A DNA stretch of 14,251 nucleotides from the NCBI GenBank assembly GCA_026125925.1, contig JAHCKF010000044.1, forward strand, positions 1 to 14,251. Reading direction: 5' to 3'. This document shows positions 1,380 to 10,985 of this stretch, one piece after another. The DNA comes from Pseudolabrys sp. Its GTDB lineage: Bacteria; Pseudomonadota; Alphaproteobacteria; Rhizobiales; Xanthobacteraceae. Made by a program: the position numbers and the translations under genes. The number at the start of each line of letters is the position of its first letter. Positions within the stretch are counted from its first letter, which is position 1. A model generated the notes under the pieces. The model was not told where the DNA came from, made no database searches, and worked only from the letters and a program-made list of their open reading frames with translations.

Positions 1380-1405
1380 TAATATGTCGATATGTCCCGA
1401 CATAT
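1380..1405 (+). promoter_or_regulatory. Probable ArsR operator and -10 region of the ars operon
   Basis: A perfect inverted repeat ATATGTC-cc-GACATAT spans 1390-1405, and a further direct half-site ATATGTC lies at 1382-1388. The repeat overlaps the annotated start codon at 1392. TAATAT (1380-1385) could serve as a -10 box, with a poor -35 (TTCCCT, 1357-1362) 17 bases upstream. ArsR proteins normally bind AT-rich inverted repeats over their own promoter, so self-repression is inferred. The binding site is not proven. Confidence 0.6.
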
Positions 1406-2255
1406 GGATAACATGGAAGCCGAAGCCGTCTTTGCCGCGCTCGCCCAGGCGACCCGGCTGAGGGCTTTCCGCATGCTGATGGCCGCTCATCCGAACGGCC
1501 TGCCGGCGGGCGAGGTATCCAGCACCTGCGAGGTGCCGCACAACACGATGTCCACGCATCTGTCGGTTCTTCATCGCGCCGGCCTTGTCACCGTCGAACG
1601 TGACGGCCGGTCGATGAACTATCGCGCCGATCTGCGGACCTTCCGTGAGCTCATTCGATTCCTGGCCACCGATTGCTGCAATGGACGGCCGGAAATCTGC
1701 GGCGATCTCGCGCGGCTCATTCCCGAAGAGGTCGATGACATGGATCAGAATACTCACGCGCCTGCGTTCAACGTGCTCTTCCTGTGCACGCAGAATTCCG
1801 CCCGCTCGATCATGGCCGAGGCTTTGCTCGAAAAGATCGGCAAGGGACGCTTCAACGCCTATTCGGCCGGCTCCGCGCCGGCCGCGCAACCGATGCCTGA
1901 AGTGATCGAGCGCCTGAAGGCGCTTGGCCACGAGGTTGGCAACCTGCGCAGCAAGTCGTGGAACGAATTCACCGGGCCCGACGCGCCGCGCATGGATTTC
2001 GTCATCGCGCTTTGCGACACGCTGCAGGGGCAGGTCTGTCCGGATTTCGGCAACAAGGCGATGACCGCGGCATGGCCGCTGCCCGATCCCGCCAAATTCA
2101 CCGGCACGGCGGCCGAGCGCGTCACGCTGCTCAACGAGCTCTACGCCATGATCCGGCGCCGCCTCGAAGCCTTCACCAGCCTGCCGTTCACATCGCTCGA
2201 CAAGATCGCGCTCGGGCTCAGGCTCGACGAAATCGGCGACACCGCGCGCGCTTGA
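1392..2255 (+). CDS. ArsR-type repressor fused to low-molecular-weight phosphatase-type arsenate reductase (ArsC)
   Basis: This is a 287-residue two-domain cytoplasmic protein. Residues about 8-110 form an ArsR/SmtB winged helix-turn-helix domain (recognition region near VPHNTMSTHLSVLHRAGLV). It lacks the classical CxC metal site in the recognition helix, but has C95, C96 and C103 after the DNA-binding domain, like the three-cysteine As(III) site known in Acidithiobacillus ferrooxidans ArsR. Residues about 125-280 are a LMW-phosphatase fold arsenate reductase: P-loop CTQNSARS (C132, N135, R138), redox pair C208/C216, and general acid D232 in LPDP. All expected catalytic residues are present. 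The start at 1392 has no clear Shine-Dalgarno; M5 (1404) and M8 (1413) are alternatives and would fit better with the operator overlapping 1390-1405. It is the first gene of the operon, 18 bases before gap. An internal ATG at 1740 has its own ribosome site. Confidence 0.93.
   Translation: MSRHMDNMEAEAVFAALAQATRLRAFRMLMAAHPNGLPAGEVSSTCEVPHNTMSTHLSVLHRAGLVTVERDGRSMNYRADLRTFRELIRFLATDCCNGRPEICGDLARLIPEEVDDMDQNTHAPAFNVLFLCTQNSARSIMAEALLEKIGKGRFNAYSAGSAPAAQPMPEVIERLKALGHEVGNLRSKSWNEFTGPDAPRMDFVIALCDTLQGQVCPDFGNKAMTAAWPLPDPAKFTGTAAERVTLLNELYAMIRRRLEAFTSLPFTSLDKIALGLRLDEIGDTARA
1725..1742 (+). promoter_or_regulatory. Possible internal ribosome binding site and start for a free ArsC domain
   Basis: GAAGAGG at 1725-1731 lies 8 bases before an in-frame ATG (1740-1742, residue M117) exactly at the linker between the ArsR and ArsC domains. 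Translation from here would give a 171-residue protein starting MDQNTHAPAFNVLFLC, the usual beginning of a stand-alone ArsC. This is better spaced than any signal before the main start. It may be a relic of two formerly separate genes or still be used. Confidence 0.4.
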
Positions 2256-2273: not shown

Positions 2274-3317
2274 ATGGCCATCGGAATCAACGGCATGGGC
2301 CGCGTCGGCCGGCTCGCGCTGCGGGCCGCGTTCGGCGGCATCCGGCGCGGGGCGGACGATCCGCGCGCCGGCAACCGGCTCGATGTCGTGCACATCAACG
2401 AACTCAAGGGCGGCGCGGCCGCGACCGCGCATCTCCTTGAGTTCGACAGCATCCATGGCCGCTGGCATGGCGCCTTCGCTGTGGAGGATGAAAGCGCAAT
2501 CGTCGTCGATGGCCGCCGGTTAAGTTTCAGCGCGGCGGCGCAGCCCGGCGACGTCGCCTGGGGCGATCTCGGCTGCGATATCGTGCTCGAATGCACCGGC
2601 AAGTTTCTCAAGCCCGAGCAGTTGCAGGCCTATTTCGATCGCGGCGTGAAGCGCGTCATCGTTGCCGCGCCGGTCAAGGACGATCGTGCGCTCAATGTCG
2701 TCGTCGGCGTCAACGATCATCTTTACGATCCGGAGCGCCATCGCCTGCTTACCGCGGCGTCTTGCACCACCAATTGCCTCGCACCGGTCGTGAAGGTCAT
2801 TCATGAGGCGATCGGCATCCGTCACGGCCAGATCACGACTATCCACGATCCGACCAACACCAATGTCGTCGTCGACGCGCCGCACAAGGACTTGCGCCGC
2901 GCGCGGTCGGCCATGCTGTCGCTGCAACCGACCACGACCGGCAGCGCCACGGCGATTGCGCTCATCTATCCGGAATTGAAAGGCAAGCTGAACGGTCACG
3001 CGGTGCGCGCGCCGGTGCTCAATGCGAGCCTGACCGATTGCGTCTTCGAACTGGAGCGTCCGACGACGGTCACCGAAGTCAATGCGCTGTTCGATGCCGC
3101 CGCCAAGGGGCCGCTGGCCGGCATTCTCGGCATCGAGCACCGGCCGCTGGTGTCGGCGGATTACAACAACGACGCGCGCAGCTCCATCGTCGATGCGCTC
3201 TCGACCATGGTCACCGACGAAACGCTGCTCAAGGTCTATGCCTGGTACGACAACGAGGTCGGCTATGCCTGCCGCATGGTGGACCTTGCCAACATCGTCA
3301 TCAGAGCGAGCGTGTGA
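2274..3317 (+). CDS. ArsJ-associated glyceraldehyde-3-phosphate dehydrogenase
   Basis: A 347-residue type I phosphorylating GAPDH in the arsJ-linked subgroup. In known systems this enzyme uses arsenate in place of phosphate to make 1-arseno-3-phosphoglycerate from glyceraldehyde-3-phosphate and NAD+, for export by ArsJ. Visible features are the Rossmann start [15 protein letters not shown] (3-17), the active-site SCTTNC with catalytic C164 (163-168), catalytic H191 followed by DPTNTN (192-197, unlike the SYT sequence of glycolytic GapA), and C-terminal [16 protein letters not shown] (323-338). A good Shine-Dalgarno AGGGGA (2260-2265) sits 8 bases before ATG 2274. It lies between arsRC and arsJ in one transcription unit, and its stop at 3315-3317 is 5 bases before the arsJ ATG. 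The operon position and the HDPTNTN motif favour the arsenate role over housekeeping glycolysis. Confidence 0.93.
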
Positions 3318-3322
3318 CGTCG

Positions 3323-4549
3323 ATGGTCAGAAACTACCTCATCGTCACGGCGTCCTATTGGGGCTTCACGCTCGTCGATGGCGCCTTGCGCATGCTGGTG
3401 TTACTGCACTTCTTCCGGCTCGGCTATACGCCCTTCGCGCTTGCCTTCCTGTTTCTGCTCTATGAAGCCGCCGGCATCGCGGCCAATCTCGGCGGTGGCT
3501 GGCTGGCGTCGCGTTTCGGCATCCCGCGCATGCTCGCGGTCGGTCAGACGCTACAGATCGCCGGCCTCGTCATGATGTCACTGCTTGATCCCGGCTGGAG
3601 CGCCGCCGCTTCGGTCGCGTGGGTCGTCGCCGCGCAAGGCATTGCCGGTGTCGCCAAGGACGTCACCAAGACGGCGTCGAAGTCGGCGATCAAGGCGACT
3701 TCCGCCGAAGGCAGCGGTCAATTGTTCAAATGGGTCGCGTGGTTCACCGGGTCGAAGAACGCGATGAAGGGCATCGGTTTCTTCTTCGGCGGCTTGTTGC
3801 TCGAACTCGTAGGTTTCCGGTTCGCGCTCTGGCTGATGGCGGCACTGCTTGCTGTGATTCTCGTCGTCGGCCTGCTGTCGCTGCCCCGCACGCTTGGCAA
3901 GGCCAAGTCGTCGAAGACCATGAAGGAGCTGTTCGGCAAGTCGCGCGGCGTCAATCTCCTGGCGGCGGCGCGCATCTTCATGTTCGGCGCGCGCGATGTC
4001 TGGTTCGTCGTCGGCCTTCCGGTCTATCTCTACGCCAGCGGCTGGCGCTTTCTCGAGGTCGGCGGCTTTCTCGCCGCCTGGACCATCGCCTATGGCGGCA
4101 TTCAGGCCATCGCGCCGGCTTTGGTCATGCGCAGTGCCGATGGTCTGAGCCGCGAAATTCCGGCAGCCCGGCTGTGGGCGGCGGTGCTCGCTACGGTGCC
4201 GGTCGCTCTGGTCTTCGTTATGCAGGCGCCCGATTTGTGGCGCCCGGATATTATTCTGGTCTGCGGCCTGGCGTTGTTCGGGCTGCCCTTTGCGGTCAAC
4301 TCGTCGCTGCACTCCTATCTGATCCTCGCCTATGCCGGCTCGGAGAAGGCGGCGGAAGACGTGGGCTTTTACTATGCCGCCAATGCGGCCGGCCGGCTGA
4401 TGGGAATCCTGCTTTCCGGTCTTCTCTATCAGTTGGGCGGCATCACGGCGTGCCTGATCGGTTCGGCCGCCATGCTGGTCGTCGGCTGGCTCATCACATT
4501 CCTGCTACCCGCCAGTGCTTCAGCGGCGCCGGTTCGGCGGATGGCCTGA
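3323..4549 (+). CDS. arsJ: ArsJ, organoarsenical (1-arseno-3-phosphoglycerate) efflux MFS permease
   Basis: A 408-residue inner-membrane protein of the major facilitator superfamily with many hydrophobic helices. ArsJ exports 1-arseno-3-phosphoglycerate, which then falls apart outside to arsenate and 3-phosphoglycerate, so arsenate is expelled without reduction. Family-typical segments include the N-terminal NYLIVTASYWGFTLVDGALR, the cytoplasmic loop with KDVTKTASKSAIK, and the C-terminal NSSLHSYLILAYAGSEKA followed by VGFYYAANAAGRLMG. ATG 3323 is chosen because it gives the usual MVRNYLIVT start and leaves 5 bases after the GAPDH stop. A GTG at 3314 overlapping that stop is an alternative. 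The open frame extends far upstream into gap, but that part is out of phase with the GAPDH gene and not coding. The adjacent GAPDH is its required partner in described systems. Confidence 0.94.
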   Translation: MVRNYLIVTASYWGFTLVDGALRMLVLLHFFRLGYTPFALAFLFLLYEAAGIAANLGGGWLASRFGIPRMLAVGQTLQIAGLVMMSLLDPGWSAAASVAWVVAAQGIAGVAKDVTKTASKSAIKATSAEGSGQLFKWVAWFTGSKNAMKGIGFFFGGLLLELVGFRFALWLMAALLAVILVVGLLSLPRTLGKAKSSKTMKELFGKSRGVNLLAAARIFMFGARDVWFVVGLPVYLYASGWRFLEVGGFLAAWTIAYGGIQAIAPALVMRSADGLSREIPAARLWAAVLATVPVALVFVMQAPDLWRPDIILVCGLALFGLPFAVNSSLHSYLILAYAGSEKAAEDVGFYYAANAAGRLMGILLSGLLYQLGGITACLIGSAAMLVVGWLITFLLPASASAAPVRRMA

Positions 4550-4650: not shown

Positions 4651-6021
4651 ATGGCGCGTGACCAGATCGACATGACCCCGCTCGAGACGCGCGACGAACT
4701 CGTCGCCTGGCTCGAAGCAGGCTGCAAACCTAAGACCCAGTTCCGCGTCGGCACCGAGCACGAGAAATTCGTCTTCACGCTCAACGATCATAAGCCCGTA
4801 CCCTATGCCGGGCCGCGGTCGATCCGCGCGCTGCTCGACGGCATGCACGCCCTGCTCGGCTGGGAGCCGATCATGGAGGGCGAGAACATCATCGGCATGT
4901 TCGACGTCACCGGCGGCGGCGCCATCTCGCTGGAGCCGGGCGGCCAGTTCGAACTGTCGGGCGCGCCTTACGACAACGTGCACCAGACCGCTGCCGAATT
5001 GTTCGCCCATCTGGCGCAGGTGCGTGAAGTCGCCAAGCCGATGGGTCTTGGCTTCATCGGGCTGGGCATGACGCCGACGTGGTCGCGCGCCGATATGCCG
5101 GTGATGCCCAAGGGCCGCTACAAAATCATGACAAACTACATGCCGAAGGTCGGCACGCGCGGCCTCGACATGATGTATCGCACCTGCACGGTGCAATCGA
5201 ACCTCGACTTCTCCTCGGAAGCCGACATGGTGAAAAAGCTGCGTGTGTCGCTGGCTCTGCAGCCGGTCGCCACTGCCTTGTTCGCCAATTCGCCATTCAC
5301 CGAAGGCTGCCCCAACGGCTATCTGTCGGCGCGCTCGGAAATCTGGCGCGACACCGACAATAACCGCGCCGGAATGCTGCCCTTCGCCTTCGAGGACGGC
5401 ATGGGCTTCGAGCGCTACGTCGATTACGCGCTCGACGTGCCGATGTATTTCATCAAGCGCGGCGACAGTTATATCGACGTCTCGGGCAAGTCGTTCCGCG
5501 ATTTCTTCGCCGGCAAACTCGACACCATGCCCGGCGAGCGGCCGACCATCTCCGACTGGGCCAATCACCTGTCGACGATCTTTCCCGAAGTGCGGCTCAA
5601 GCGTTATCTCGAAATGCGCGGCGCCGACGGCGGGCCGTGGCGGCGCCTGCCGTCGCTGTCGGCCTATTGGGTTGGCATCTTCTATGATGACGATGCGCTC
5701 GAAGCCTGCTGGCAGATGGTCAAGGACTGGACCGCGGAGGAACGTCAGAAGCTGCGCGACGACGTACCGAAGCTCGGCTTCAGGGCCGAGATTCGCGGCC
5801 GCAACGTGCTGACTTTGGCGCAGGAAACCTTGCGCATCGCCGCTCGCGGACTGGCGCGCCGCAAAAGGCTCGACCGCAACGGCCGGGACGAGACGCGCTA
5901 TCTGCGGCCGCTCGAGGAATCGATTGCGCGCGGCATCACCCCGGCCGAGGAGCTTTTGGAGAAGTACCACGGTGAATGGGGCGGCAATGTCGACCGCATT
6001 TATGATGAGTATATGTATTAA
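4651..6021 (+). CDS. gshA: Glutamate-cysteine ligase (alphaproteobacterial/plant type)
   Basis: Catalyses ATP-dependent joining of L-glutamate and L-cysteine, the first and limiting step of glutathione synthesis (EC 6.3.2.2), in the cytoplasm. The 456-residue length suits the GCS2-family enzymes shared by alphaproteobacteria and plants. Conserved stretches are GTEHEKF (34-40), SLEPGGQFELSGAP (93-106), TCTVQSNLDF (178-187), FANSPF (211-216) and SEIWRDTDNNRAG (229-241). ATG 4651 has no clear Shine-Dalgarno (upstream GGACCTTTTCTG), and M8 at 4672 is an alternative start. It follows arsJ by 101 bases that include the 12-bp palindrome CGGTCGCGACCG (4551-4562) but no obvious terminator, so read-through from the ars operon is possible but not shown. 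Glutathione could aid arsenate or arsenite detoxification; that link is inferred from position. Confidence 0.95.
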   Translation: MARDQIDMTPLETRDELVAWLEAGCKPKTQFRVGTEHEKFVFTLNDHKPVPYAGPRSIRALLDGMHALLGWEPIMEGENIIGMFDVTGGGAISLEPGGQFELSGAPYDNVHQTAAELFAHLAQVREVAKPMGLGFIGLGMTPTWSRADMPVMPKGRYKIMTNYMPKVGTRGLDMMYRTCTVQSNLDFSSEADMVKKLRVSLALQPVATALFANSPFTEGCPNGYLSARSEIWRDTDNNRAGMLPFAFEDGMGFERYVDYALDVPMYFIKRGDSYIDVSGKSFRDFFAGKLDTMPGERPTISDWANHLSTIFPEVRLKRYLEMRGADGGPWRRLPSLSAYWVGIFYDDDALEACWQMVKDWTAEERQKLRDDVPKLGFRAEIRGRNVLTLAQETLRIAARGLARRKRLDRNGRDETRYLRPLEESIARGITPAEELLEKYHGEWGGNVDRIYDEYMY

Positions 6022-9233: not shown

Positions 9234-10985
9234 TCACGGCATGCCGGCAACTTCCGGCGTGAGCAGGGCGCGGCGGTCCTTGACGACGCCGATCTTCACG
9301 CCGAGCCGTTTGATCGTCGAGATTTCCCAGCCGCCCAGCGCGCGATCGCAGTTCATGTGCGTCGGCGCAATGAAGAACTCGGCCTTGCTCCAGTCCGAGA
9401 CCCATTGGAGTCGTGAGTTGGCTTCTTTCTCGAAGGGCAGGCGCTCGCCGCAGACCGCGACCGTATAGCGGTGCGTGTGATGTCCTTTGACATCGAGCTT
9501 GGCGACATAGGCTTCGAGGTCATCAACAGCCTCGGGCATGATAGCGACCCAATAGTCACCGACATAACGTCCCGATGCGCCCGATAGTCCGCCGACCAGC
9601 GGATTGTAGAAGAGGTATTCGTAGGGATGCAGCGCGATCAGGGTGCCGGCGTTCCAGCCGAGCGTCGCCACGATCGCCAGCGCCGCGGCGCGTGACAGCA
9701 ACGGCCGTACCGCGGCACAGCGGCTCAGCAGCGCGTCGAAACCGATGCCGGCGAGCACCGCGAACACCGGCACGACGAACAGGAAATGCCGCAGCCCGGT
9801 GAAGGCGGGACCGCGATCGATCACCTCGCAAACCACCGGAAAGGCCGCGATCACGGCGAGGAGCAGCGTCTCATTGCGCCGGCGAAGTTGGCCGGCGCAA
9901 CCGTCGCGGCGCGGCCAAACGATGAAGATGACCGACACCATCGCGCCGGCGACGATGATTAGCGGCAGCTTGAACAGCAGATAGGCCGGCACGTACCAGC
10001 GCGGCACGTTGGCCATCTCATAGATGTGGCCGTCGAGCAGGGTGCGGATCTGATAGTGAAACTGGCCGAAGTCGAGAAGCCCGCGTATCGGATTGAGCGG
10101 CGCCAGCGCCGACCACGGCCAGGCCACGATCATGACGAGATAGGCGATGATGAGGGCCGGCAGCAGCGCCTTCACCGAGCGGGCGAAGAATTCGACGGCC
10201 TTGTCGAGGTTGCGCCGCCATGACGGTCCATAGACGAAGATCGCGAGTGCGACGTAGCCGGCGAGCAAGAGCCCGAGCACGCGAATGCCCAGCGCGGCGC
10301 CGAACAGCAGACCGAAGCCGATGACGTCGCGCCAGCGCGGCCGTGGTAGGTTGCGCGCCGCGCGCAGCAGGAAGTAGGTCGCTCCCATCATCGCCGCGGC
10401 GAAGGGGATGTCTTTGGTGTGGTTGAACATCGAGCCGTACCACGGCCCGCACACCGCAAGCGCGAAGGCGGCGATCGCCGCGGCGCGCGATCCGGCGACG
10501 AGGCGCGCGGTGGCCCAGGCGGCGACGATGCCGCCAAGTCCCATGAAGGCGCAGAGCAGATGCCGGATGGCGTAAGCGTCGACCATCGGCAGCGCGCGCT
10601 GCGTCAGCACCGCGATACCGTCGAACAGCCCGCCATAGAGATACAGATTGACGAAATGAAACAGTGCCTGGTCTTTGAAACCGCTGGCGTAATAGGCGAC
10701 GATCAGCTCGCCGTAGCGCTGCTGCACTTCCTCGTCGTTGGTGATGGCGTAGGAATCGAACGTCAGCACGATCAGCGCGGCCACCGTGGCGAACAGCGCG
10801 GCCGCCGCCAGGTCGTAGCGGTCCCAGCCGTCAAGCCGTGCGCGCAGGCGCGCGGCAAGGCGTGTCGCGGCGCTTGGCCGCACGCTTGAAAAACCGGCGG
10901 ACATCATTGTGTGCGTGTCGGGGATACGCCAGGGCGCAGGATGAACTGTGGCCATGCGTTGGTTCGCATGGTCCGGCTGTGTCAT
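9234..10985 (-). CDS. GT-C type (family 39-like) membrane glycosyltransferase
   Basis: A 583-residue polytopic inner-membrane protein with roughly ten to twelve hydrophobic segments between residues 58 and 440 and a soluble C-terminal part of about 130 residues. It resembles dolichyl/polyprenyl-phosphate-sugar mannosyltransferase (PMT/ArnT/GT39) proteins: the first outer loop after helix 1 carries the acidic motif ITNDEEVQQRYGE (81-93; D84, E85 are candidate catalytic residues), and HPYEYLFYNPLVGG near the last helices matches the YxYxxYN-type ending of such proteins. It would transfer a sugar from a lipid carrier on the periplasmic side; donor and acceptor are unknown. The start is uncertain: M1 (10985), M11 (10955) and M27 (10907) lack a Shine-Dalgarno, and M27, just before the basic segment, gives a more usual N-terminus. 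It is divergent from the PAN-domain gene. Confidence 0.78.
   Translation of the reverse strand: MTQPDHANQRMATVHPAPWRIPDTHTMMSAGFSSVRPSAATRLAARLRARLDGWDRYDLAAAALFATVAALIVLTFDSYAITNDEEVQQRYGELIVAYYASGFKDQALFHFVNLYLYGGLFDGIAVLTQRALPMVDAYAIRHLLCAFMGLGGIVAAWATARLVAGSRAAAIAAFALAVCGPWYGSMFNHTKDIPFAAAMMGATYFLLRAARNLPRPRWRDVIGFGLLFGAALGIRVLGLLLAGYVALAIFVYGPSWRRNLDKAVEFFARSVKALLPALIIAYLVMIVAWPWSALAPLNPIRGLLDFGQFHYQIRTLLDGHIYEMANVPRWYVPAYLLFKLPLIIVAGAMVSVIFIVWPRRDGCAGQLRRRNETLLLAVIAAFPVVCEVIDRGPAFTGLRHFLFVVPVFAVLAGIGFDALLSRCAAVRPLLSRAAALAIVATLGWNAGTLIALHPYEYLFYNPLVGGLSGASGRYVGDYWVAIMPEAVDDLEAYVAKLDVKGHHTHRYTVAVCGERLPFEKEANSRLQWVSDWSKAEFFIAPTHMNCDRALGGWEISTIKRLGVKIGVVKDRRALLTPEVAGMP

Follow-up and report, generated by a model that had tools for sequence, protein, structure and literature searches.

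ArsR repressors are sensors of As(III), and those of the AfArsR kind carry a Cys triad (CC plus C) after the last helix. In ArsC of the LMW-PTP type, the P-loop Cys attacks arsenate, and two more Cys then take over the oxidation while the segment between them moves extensively. Chains that combine the two, ArsR-ArsC fusions, have been reported from Leptospirillum ferriphilum, Microbacterium, and Sinorhizobium (PMC6205960) and from Actinobacteria (PMC6514093). The available part of PMC6205960 suggests that the fusion is advantageous for arsenite sensing and/or detoxification. The fusion itself is thus in print in both reports, and an earlier note on the present DNA, which mentioned Leptospirillum, was right not to regard it as new. 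Since Vibrio cholerae makes no As(III), its ArsR "probably senses AsV" according to the available text of PMC9601151, and the question of arsenate sensing is posed there without an answer. The same text describes that, without an exporter, replacing the inactive arsC of V. cholerae with E. coli arsC inhibited growth, which was restored by ArsB expression.

The window (the whole stretch of DNA that we analyzed, 14,251 nucleotides from Pseudolabrys sp.) contains an ArsR-ArsC fusion gene at 1392..2255 on the + strand, recognized from its open reading frame, Pfam and NCBIfam profiles, and homologues. The 287-aa product holds both domains in one uninterrupted chain, with Cys at positions 46, 95, 96, 103, 132, 208, and 216, in addition to R138 and D232. 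The ArsR part (1416..1700, residues about 9-103) has the winged-helix HTH of the ArsR/SmtB family and was assigned by profile and by a Foldseek match to 6j05_A. It includes the C95/C96/C103 triad (1674..1700), which we take to be an As(III) site of the AfArsR kind, 6j05 presumably being AfArsR-type. A linker (1701..1763, residues about 104-124), modeled with low confidence at 113-123, leads to the LMW-PTP-type arsenate reductase domain (1764..2252, residues about 125-287), for which 8p6m was the best Foldseek match. In this domain, the P-loop C132-X5-R138 (1785..1805) and D232 of the DP loop (2085..2087) were assigned from residue position and conservation. The resolving cysteines C208 and C216 lie at 2013..2039, and residues 211-213 between them are modeled with low confidence. 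The CX5R P-loop, the DP Asp, the PTP fold, and the two resolving Cys of a thiol-type LMW-PTP ArsC are present.

Profile scores exceeded the Pfam cut-offs for both LMWPc (PF01451; 54 bits against 23.2) and HTH_20 (40 bits against 27), and the ArsR half also passed NF033788 (57.9 against 55). The ArsC half did not reach the NCBIfam equivalogs of the thioredoxin type (TIGR02691, 51.8 against 174.3) or the glutaredoxin type (TIGR02689, 37.4 against 157.6). By sequence, the nearest solved structures were ArsR 6j05_A for residues 9-102, with C95-C96 aligned to its CC, and Deinococcus ArsC2 8p5n_A for residues 125-262. Two AlphaFold models were obtained; both domains were seen, and their mutual contact was not defined. 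The first model was compared with solved structures: the AlphaFold model had a pTM of 0.58, and Foldseek on it retrieved the same families as the sequence search. An alternative start, ATG 1404, may be the true one, as 283 residues were found in 19 of the best 28 homologues and the N-termini of the best 120 included M-D or M-E starts in 52 and M-S-R in 27. Among the query and the best 120 of 7985 homologues, the catalytic residues were found in 121/121 and the ArsR triad in 120/121, which places the fusion far beyond chance. The earlier note had described an ArsR triad and a complete ArsC in one chain at the head of a GAPDH-ArsJ operon; the residues were exactly those it named, and the two domains and both downstream genes passed their profiles.

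The fusion gene is followed after 18 bp by an ArsJ-associated glyceraldehyde-3-phosphate dehydrogenase gene (GAPDH; 2274..3317, + strand; NF033735, 554 bits against a cut-off of 450). Another 5 bp downstream, with its start taken as ATG 3323, lies the gene for ArsJ, an MFS organoarsenical efflux permease (3323..4549, + strand; NF033734, 519 bits against 400). The two genes are adjacent and both above curated cut-offs, and hence form a GAPDH-ArsJ arsenate efflux module. Downstream of arsJ is gshA (4651-6021, TIGR01436), and the other flank of the cassette is an AAA-helicase gene (2-736). At this helicase-gshA site, fusion-GAPDH-arsJ was found in the window and in loci L001 and L013, the same set plus acr3 in L002 and L006, and unfused arsR, arsC, and aqpS instead in L064, L068, L074, and L075. 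Judged from gene order, this is an apparent cassette exchange at a fixed chromosomal place between the AAA-helicase gene and gshA.

A scan for promoters and terminators yielded no promoter, and terminators only at chance level. Overlapping the start region of the fusion gene is a probable operator, the inverted repeat ATATGTCG-N8-CGACATAT (1382..1405, no strand assigned), a perfect palindrome with 8-bp arms that none of 40 shuffles equaled. A near-identical element was present at the fusions of L001, L002, L006, and L013 and also at the unfused arsR of L045, suggesting that both kinds of regulator may read one operator. At most other window-type loci, the same palindrome scan returned nothing above chance. 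From the position of this putative operator, we infer that the fusion is autoregulated through the palindrome at its own start.

Relatives of the fusion were collected by a contig scan, in which 212 stretches contained a relative and 76 loci were kept. Frame analysis divided these into 56 fusions, 17 two-gene loci, two loci with an in-frame stop (L030 and L031), and one without an ArsR part (L062). The 17 two-gene loci had been candidate fusions of lineage B; they were rejected as such, being two genes that often overlap, and were counted among the unfused controls instead. L030 and L031 (about 10001-10813), from Bradyrhizobiaceae-type assemblies, are window-type fusions with the stop in the ArsR half, followed by matches to GAPDH and arsJ. 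We defined loci as window-type when the ArsC half was at least 60% identical to that of the window (n = 43, L062 being dropped). In 38 of these 43, including both stop-bearing loci, arsJ lay within 4.5 kb; the other five had Acr3 nearby (two), AqpS nearby (two), or a contig edge (L025). Among Xanthobacter-type fusions, arsJ was nearby in 5 of 14 loci and absent nearby in nine.

The pairing with arsJ was evident in a survey centered on arsJ itself. With G001 (the genome of relative L001) as the point of reference, it drew 66 arsJ loci from 385 genomes of the same class and 297 of the same order, the locus of G001 itself being left out. These loci held a fused ArsR-ArsC in 23 cases, separate ArsR and ArsC in eight, ArsR only in 12, and neither in 23. 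The comparison set comprised 60 of the 89 acr3 places without arsJ nearby in the same class sample, one of which (L202) was from G001. Here, one was fused, 26 had separate genes, 15 had ArsR only, two had ArsC only, and 16 had neither. Thus, where both ArsR and ArsC occurred, they were fused in 23/31 arsJ loci versus 1/27 acr3 loci (Fisher p 2e-8, uncorrected for kinship). Of the 66 arsJ loci (L107-L126, L144-L189), the 23 with neither gene within 4.5 kb include at least two, L186 and L188, that are cut by contig ends.

A second survey was blind to arsJ: a fused protein was searched against the 385 class genomes, G001 being left out, and a match was counted as fused when both halves were matched without a stop. 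Among the matches listed, arsJ was within 6 kb of 17/23 fusions versus 7/126 unfused ArsC (p 3e-12, uncorrected for kinship). Two of the 17 fusions adjoin partial arsJ genes at contig ends, and two of the seven unfused ArsC in fact belong to fusions, L154 and L147. The six fusions away from arsJ had AqpS (L251, L252, and L253), Acr3 (L254 and L243), or none of the genes sought (L250), and all six retain CC plus C. On plasmids, we opened 13 among the 40 matches listed of 419 plasmid records matched. The order fusion, ArsJ-associated GAPDH, arsJ was found in all 12 Rhodobacterales loci opened, many with overlapping ends; the thirteenth plasmid, from Shinella H34 (48% identity), carries an arsC-acr3 locus. 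In a sample of the phylum, ArsJ was present in 118/398 genomes, and the 40 arsJ loci fetched included six with an ArsR-ArsC fusion and three more with the reverse order; since the profiles score ArsR weakly outside Alphaproteobacteria (about 20-50 bits), "none" is an undercount there. The association with ArsJ, to which the earlier note had drawn attention, was therefore strong in both surveys and uniform in the Rhodobacterales plasmid loci. Within Alphaproteobacteria, the pairing of the fusion with ArsJ is genuine and widespread.

We then compared 361 fused proteins in three groups: 121 belong to the window's group, counting the query itself, 120 are of the Xanthobacter type, and 120 are of the Rhodobacterales type, taken as the best 120 of 7985, 1407, and 5727 matches, respectively. 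The ArsC catalytic residues C132, R138, C208, and D232 were retained in 361/361 and the second resolving Cys in 357/361. The ArsR triad was retained in 120/121 proteins of the window's group, 9/120 of the Xanthobacter type, and 0/120 of the Rhodobacterales type. The CC pair was lost in 109/120 and 120/120 of the latter two types, and 86 and 105 of these proteins, respectively, have no Cys whatever before the P-loop. In unfused ArsRs, the CC pair was present in 83/83 (80 distinct), a set made up of 66 of 71 single ArsR hits (five under 45 bits were excluded as other families) and 17 more. Loss of the CC pair was thus seen in fusions only. Within the arsJ loci, the 23 fused ArsR domains had CC plus C in 15, CC only in four, and neither in four, whereas single ArsRs at fusion-free arsJ loci had CC plus C in 22/22 (Fisher p 0.004 against 15/23).

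The same operon on the Rhodobacterales plasmids encodes a fusion with the full triad in six of 12 cases, with one of the three Cys in one, and with no triad Cys in five. The damaged triads include those of two laboratory strains, Cereibacter sphaeroides 2.4.1, in which one of three Cys is left, and Rhodobacter capsulatus SB 1003, in which none is. The recognition-helix residues N51, T52, S54, and H56 were invariant across the three groups in the 47 of the 361 proteins that were aligned. Classical As(III) binding is impossible for an ArsR half that has no thiols, so in the two triad-less groups arsenic is most likely read by the ArsC domain. One fusion beside GAPDH-arsJ, at L109 (4959-5771), is missing the Cys pair of its ArsR half and, in the ArsC half, the second resolving Cys.

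In the phylogenetic tree, the fused clades A, R, and X were each well supported. This tree excluded L031, as a twin of L030, and also the degenerate domain in the middle of L154, and L030 was given no fusion state. A single origin of all fusions was not rejected by the AU test (p 0.17 and 0.30), and we therefore do not claim independent origins for the three clades; an independent-pairs test, with few events, gave a median p of 1. The ArsC-ArsR fusions in reverse order (L277, 1625-2410; L278, 8544-9359; L283, 3249-4046), which lie in arsJ operons, must be of separate origin. The ArsR part of L283 has Cys-x-Tyr in place of Cys-x-Cys, which we take to be the E. coli-type ArsR motif, and the plasmid relatives of the L278 protein are gammaproteobacterial. 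Reverse-order fusions also occur in Pseudoalteromonas arsJ operons (L314, 4543-5262; L315, 4495-5259). The ArsR and ArsC halves differ in their levels of identity, which might suggest domain swapping; we do not claim it.

Other unusual architectures were also observed. At L154 (8847-10331, - strand), upstream of GAPDH-arsJ, one chain contains ArsR, an ArsC-like domain without the catalytic Cys, and an intact ArsC. A periplasmic-binding-protein domain (PBP_like_2), PstS-like by our reading, shares one open frame with an ArsR-ArsC fusion at L056 (8909-10867), and at L060 (8909-10864) a gene for such a domain, likewise PstS-like by reading, lies 21 bp upstream of the fusion. At these last two loci, Acr3, AqpS, ArsK, and ArsJ were sought within 4.5 kb and none was found.

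Taken together, we consider it reasonably probable that the fusion senses arsenate, regulates its own expression, and controls the operon whose GAPDH and ArsJ expel arsenate, acting through self-made As(III) or through ArsC-ArsR coupling, depending on the group. The ArsR half would bind the palindrome that overlaps the start of its gene and repress the operon. Arsenate would react at C132 of the ArsC half and be turned over via C208 and C216, as expected from knowledge of the family. In the window's group, As(III) freed beside C95-C96-C103 may then lift the repressor, which fits the conservation of both sites. In the triad-less groups, what is relayed to the DNA-binding half would instead be the state of ArsC itself, either arsenic-bound or at the disulfide step. 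The window's protein could be released by arsenate via local As(III), movement of ArsC, or both. The fusion would also hold the dose of reductase at the level of a repressor, so that little toxic As(III) might be formed in an operon built to expel As(V). More tentatively, the enzyme may have become the ligand-sensing domain in these fusions, with ArsC turnover (arseno-cysteine/disulfide) switching the DNA-binding half directly and the window's protein keeping both inputs; we regard this as possible rather than probable. The earlier note had proposed that the fused reductase makes As(III) for the ArsR triad. At best, this proposal applies where the triad is retained, as in the window's group; it is not supported as a general mechanism, given the two large groups without it.

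How arsenate-expelling, non-reducing operons detect arsenate is a question that a reductase turned sensor domain would answer. If the proposed role is true, a reductase as sensor domain would provide a metalloregulator with an enzyme-turnover input, and the triad-less fusions would constitute a class of arsenate-reading ArsR repressors freed from the As(III) site. Some observations count against a sensor role. ArsJ is also found with an ordinary, triad-bearing ArsR (12/66 loci with ArsR only), and fusions occur without arsJ, in 6/23 cases of the blind survey among the matches listed and in 9/14 of the Xanthobacter type. Furthermore, the ArsC cysteines might themselves bind As(III), so that As(III) sensing could persist even where the triad is gone.

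An alternative is that the chain is simply bifunctional, joining a repressor that senses As(III) to a bulk arsenate reductase for translational convenience, while As(III) exits by way of Acr3, AqpS, ArsK, or a pump encoded elsewhere. In its favor, the catalytic residues are intact, fusions beside AqpS or Acr3 without arsJ exist, and 22 of the 36 intact window-type fusions by arsJ have Acr3, AqpS, or ArsK within 4.5 kb, so the As(III) produced there could leave the cell. When the genomes of 20 of the 43 window-type loci were searched, Acr3 was above the cut-off in 11/20; PF02040 passed in 6/20, convincingly only in G017 (511 bits), with 30-95 bits in the others. We nevertheless consider this explanation unlikely. 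Unfused arsR and arsC are the rule beside acr3 (26 separate, one fused), and the explanation does not account for why the As(III) site of ArsR is lost in fusions only. The constant presence of an As(III) exporter gene with the fusion, which the earlier note had named as counting against its own proposal, was not seen either: at the other 14 of the 36 loci, none of Acr3, AqpS, and ArsK lies within 4.5 kb, and a search for Acr3 and ArsB in the genome of L008 (G007) gave no match. The suggestion in the same note that the chain is an arsenate sensor rather than a detoxifying reductase gains support in its first part from a loss of the CC pair that was seen only in fusions. Its second part is weakened by the nearby exporters and by the fusions that accompany AqpS or Acr3 without arsJ.

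Two explanations depart further from an arsenate sensor. The LMW-PTP domain might act on 1-arseno-3-phosphoglycerate in the manner of V. cholerae VarH, a Cys-based PTP of the arsJ operon that is a proposed arsenatase in the available text of PMC9601151, and thereby free arsenate for ArsJ. The P-loop and DP Asp that such a role would use are present in the fusion, but according to the same text (PMC9601151) VarH belongs to the dual-specificity family rather than LMWPc, whereas the fusion domain is PF01451 LMWPc. Moreover, two Pseudoalteromonas plasmids have acr3, GAPDH, and arsJ in the same gene row as both a reverse-order ArsC-ArsR fusion and a gene annotated as a dual-specificity phosphatase. 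Crude patterns detected no dual-specificity phosphatase near arsJ in 14 and 40 loci, a search by which divergent ones would be missed. The fusions also conserve the three Cys of the reductase relay, for which a phosphatase would have no need, and we regard a VarH-like role as highly improbable. Only marginally less improbable is a loss of arsenic sensing in the triad-less fusions, with an ArsC half that responds to phosphate or redox state or is a relic. The PBP_like_2 neighbors of some Xanthobacter-type fusions (L056 and L060), which have no Acr3, AqpS, ArsK, or ArsJ nearby, would be consistent with this idea. However, C132, R138, C208, and D232 are retained throughout the 361 fused proteins, and the operon order fusion-GAPDH-arsJ is kept in all 12 Rhodobacterales plasmid loci opened, six of which lack the full triad. 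An arsenate sensor thus remains our preferred reading of the fusion.

The published ArsR-ArsC fusions (PMC6205960, PMC6514093), compared here by description only, likewise have ArsR and ArsC in one chain, and the available portions of these reports describe no arsJ pairing, loss of the ArsR site, or arsenate-sensor role. Among open-licence full texts, we found no paper on the fusion-arsJ pairing or on ArsR-site loss in fusions. The decay of the ArsR As(III) site, apparently confined to fusions, would be new here. Compared with AfArsR-type repressors (6j05), the fusion shares the fold and the CC pair and has a third Cys nearby; this Cys is one residue further on, and an enzyme is fused at the C-terminus. 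Its ArsC half shares the P-loop, two resolving Cys, the DP Asp, and the fold with LMW-PTP-type ArsC (8p6m, 1jl3, and pI258 ArsC) but falls below the thioredoxin and glutaredoxin equivalog cut-offs. A similar arrangement is Brevundimonas ArsR-M, also an arsenic repressor fused to an arsenic enzyme, for which the available text of PMC10190100 reports binding to its own promoter; unlike the ArsC of the window, the enzyme there is a methyltransferase acting on As(III) (PMC10190100). By curated cut-offs, the GAPDH and ArsJ of the window belong to the same families as those of the GAPDH-ArsJ efflux systems of P. aeruginosa DK2, Halomonas GFAJ-1, and the V. cholerae var operon. In V. cholerae, ArsR and a dual-specificity phosphatase are separate proteins, as described in the available text of PMC9601151, whereas in the window the regulator itself carries the reductase.
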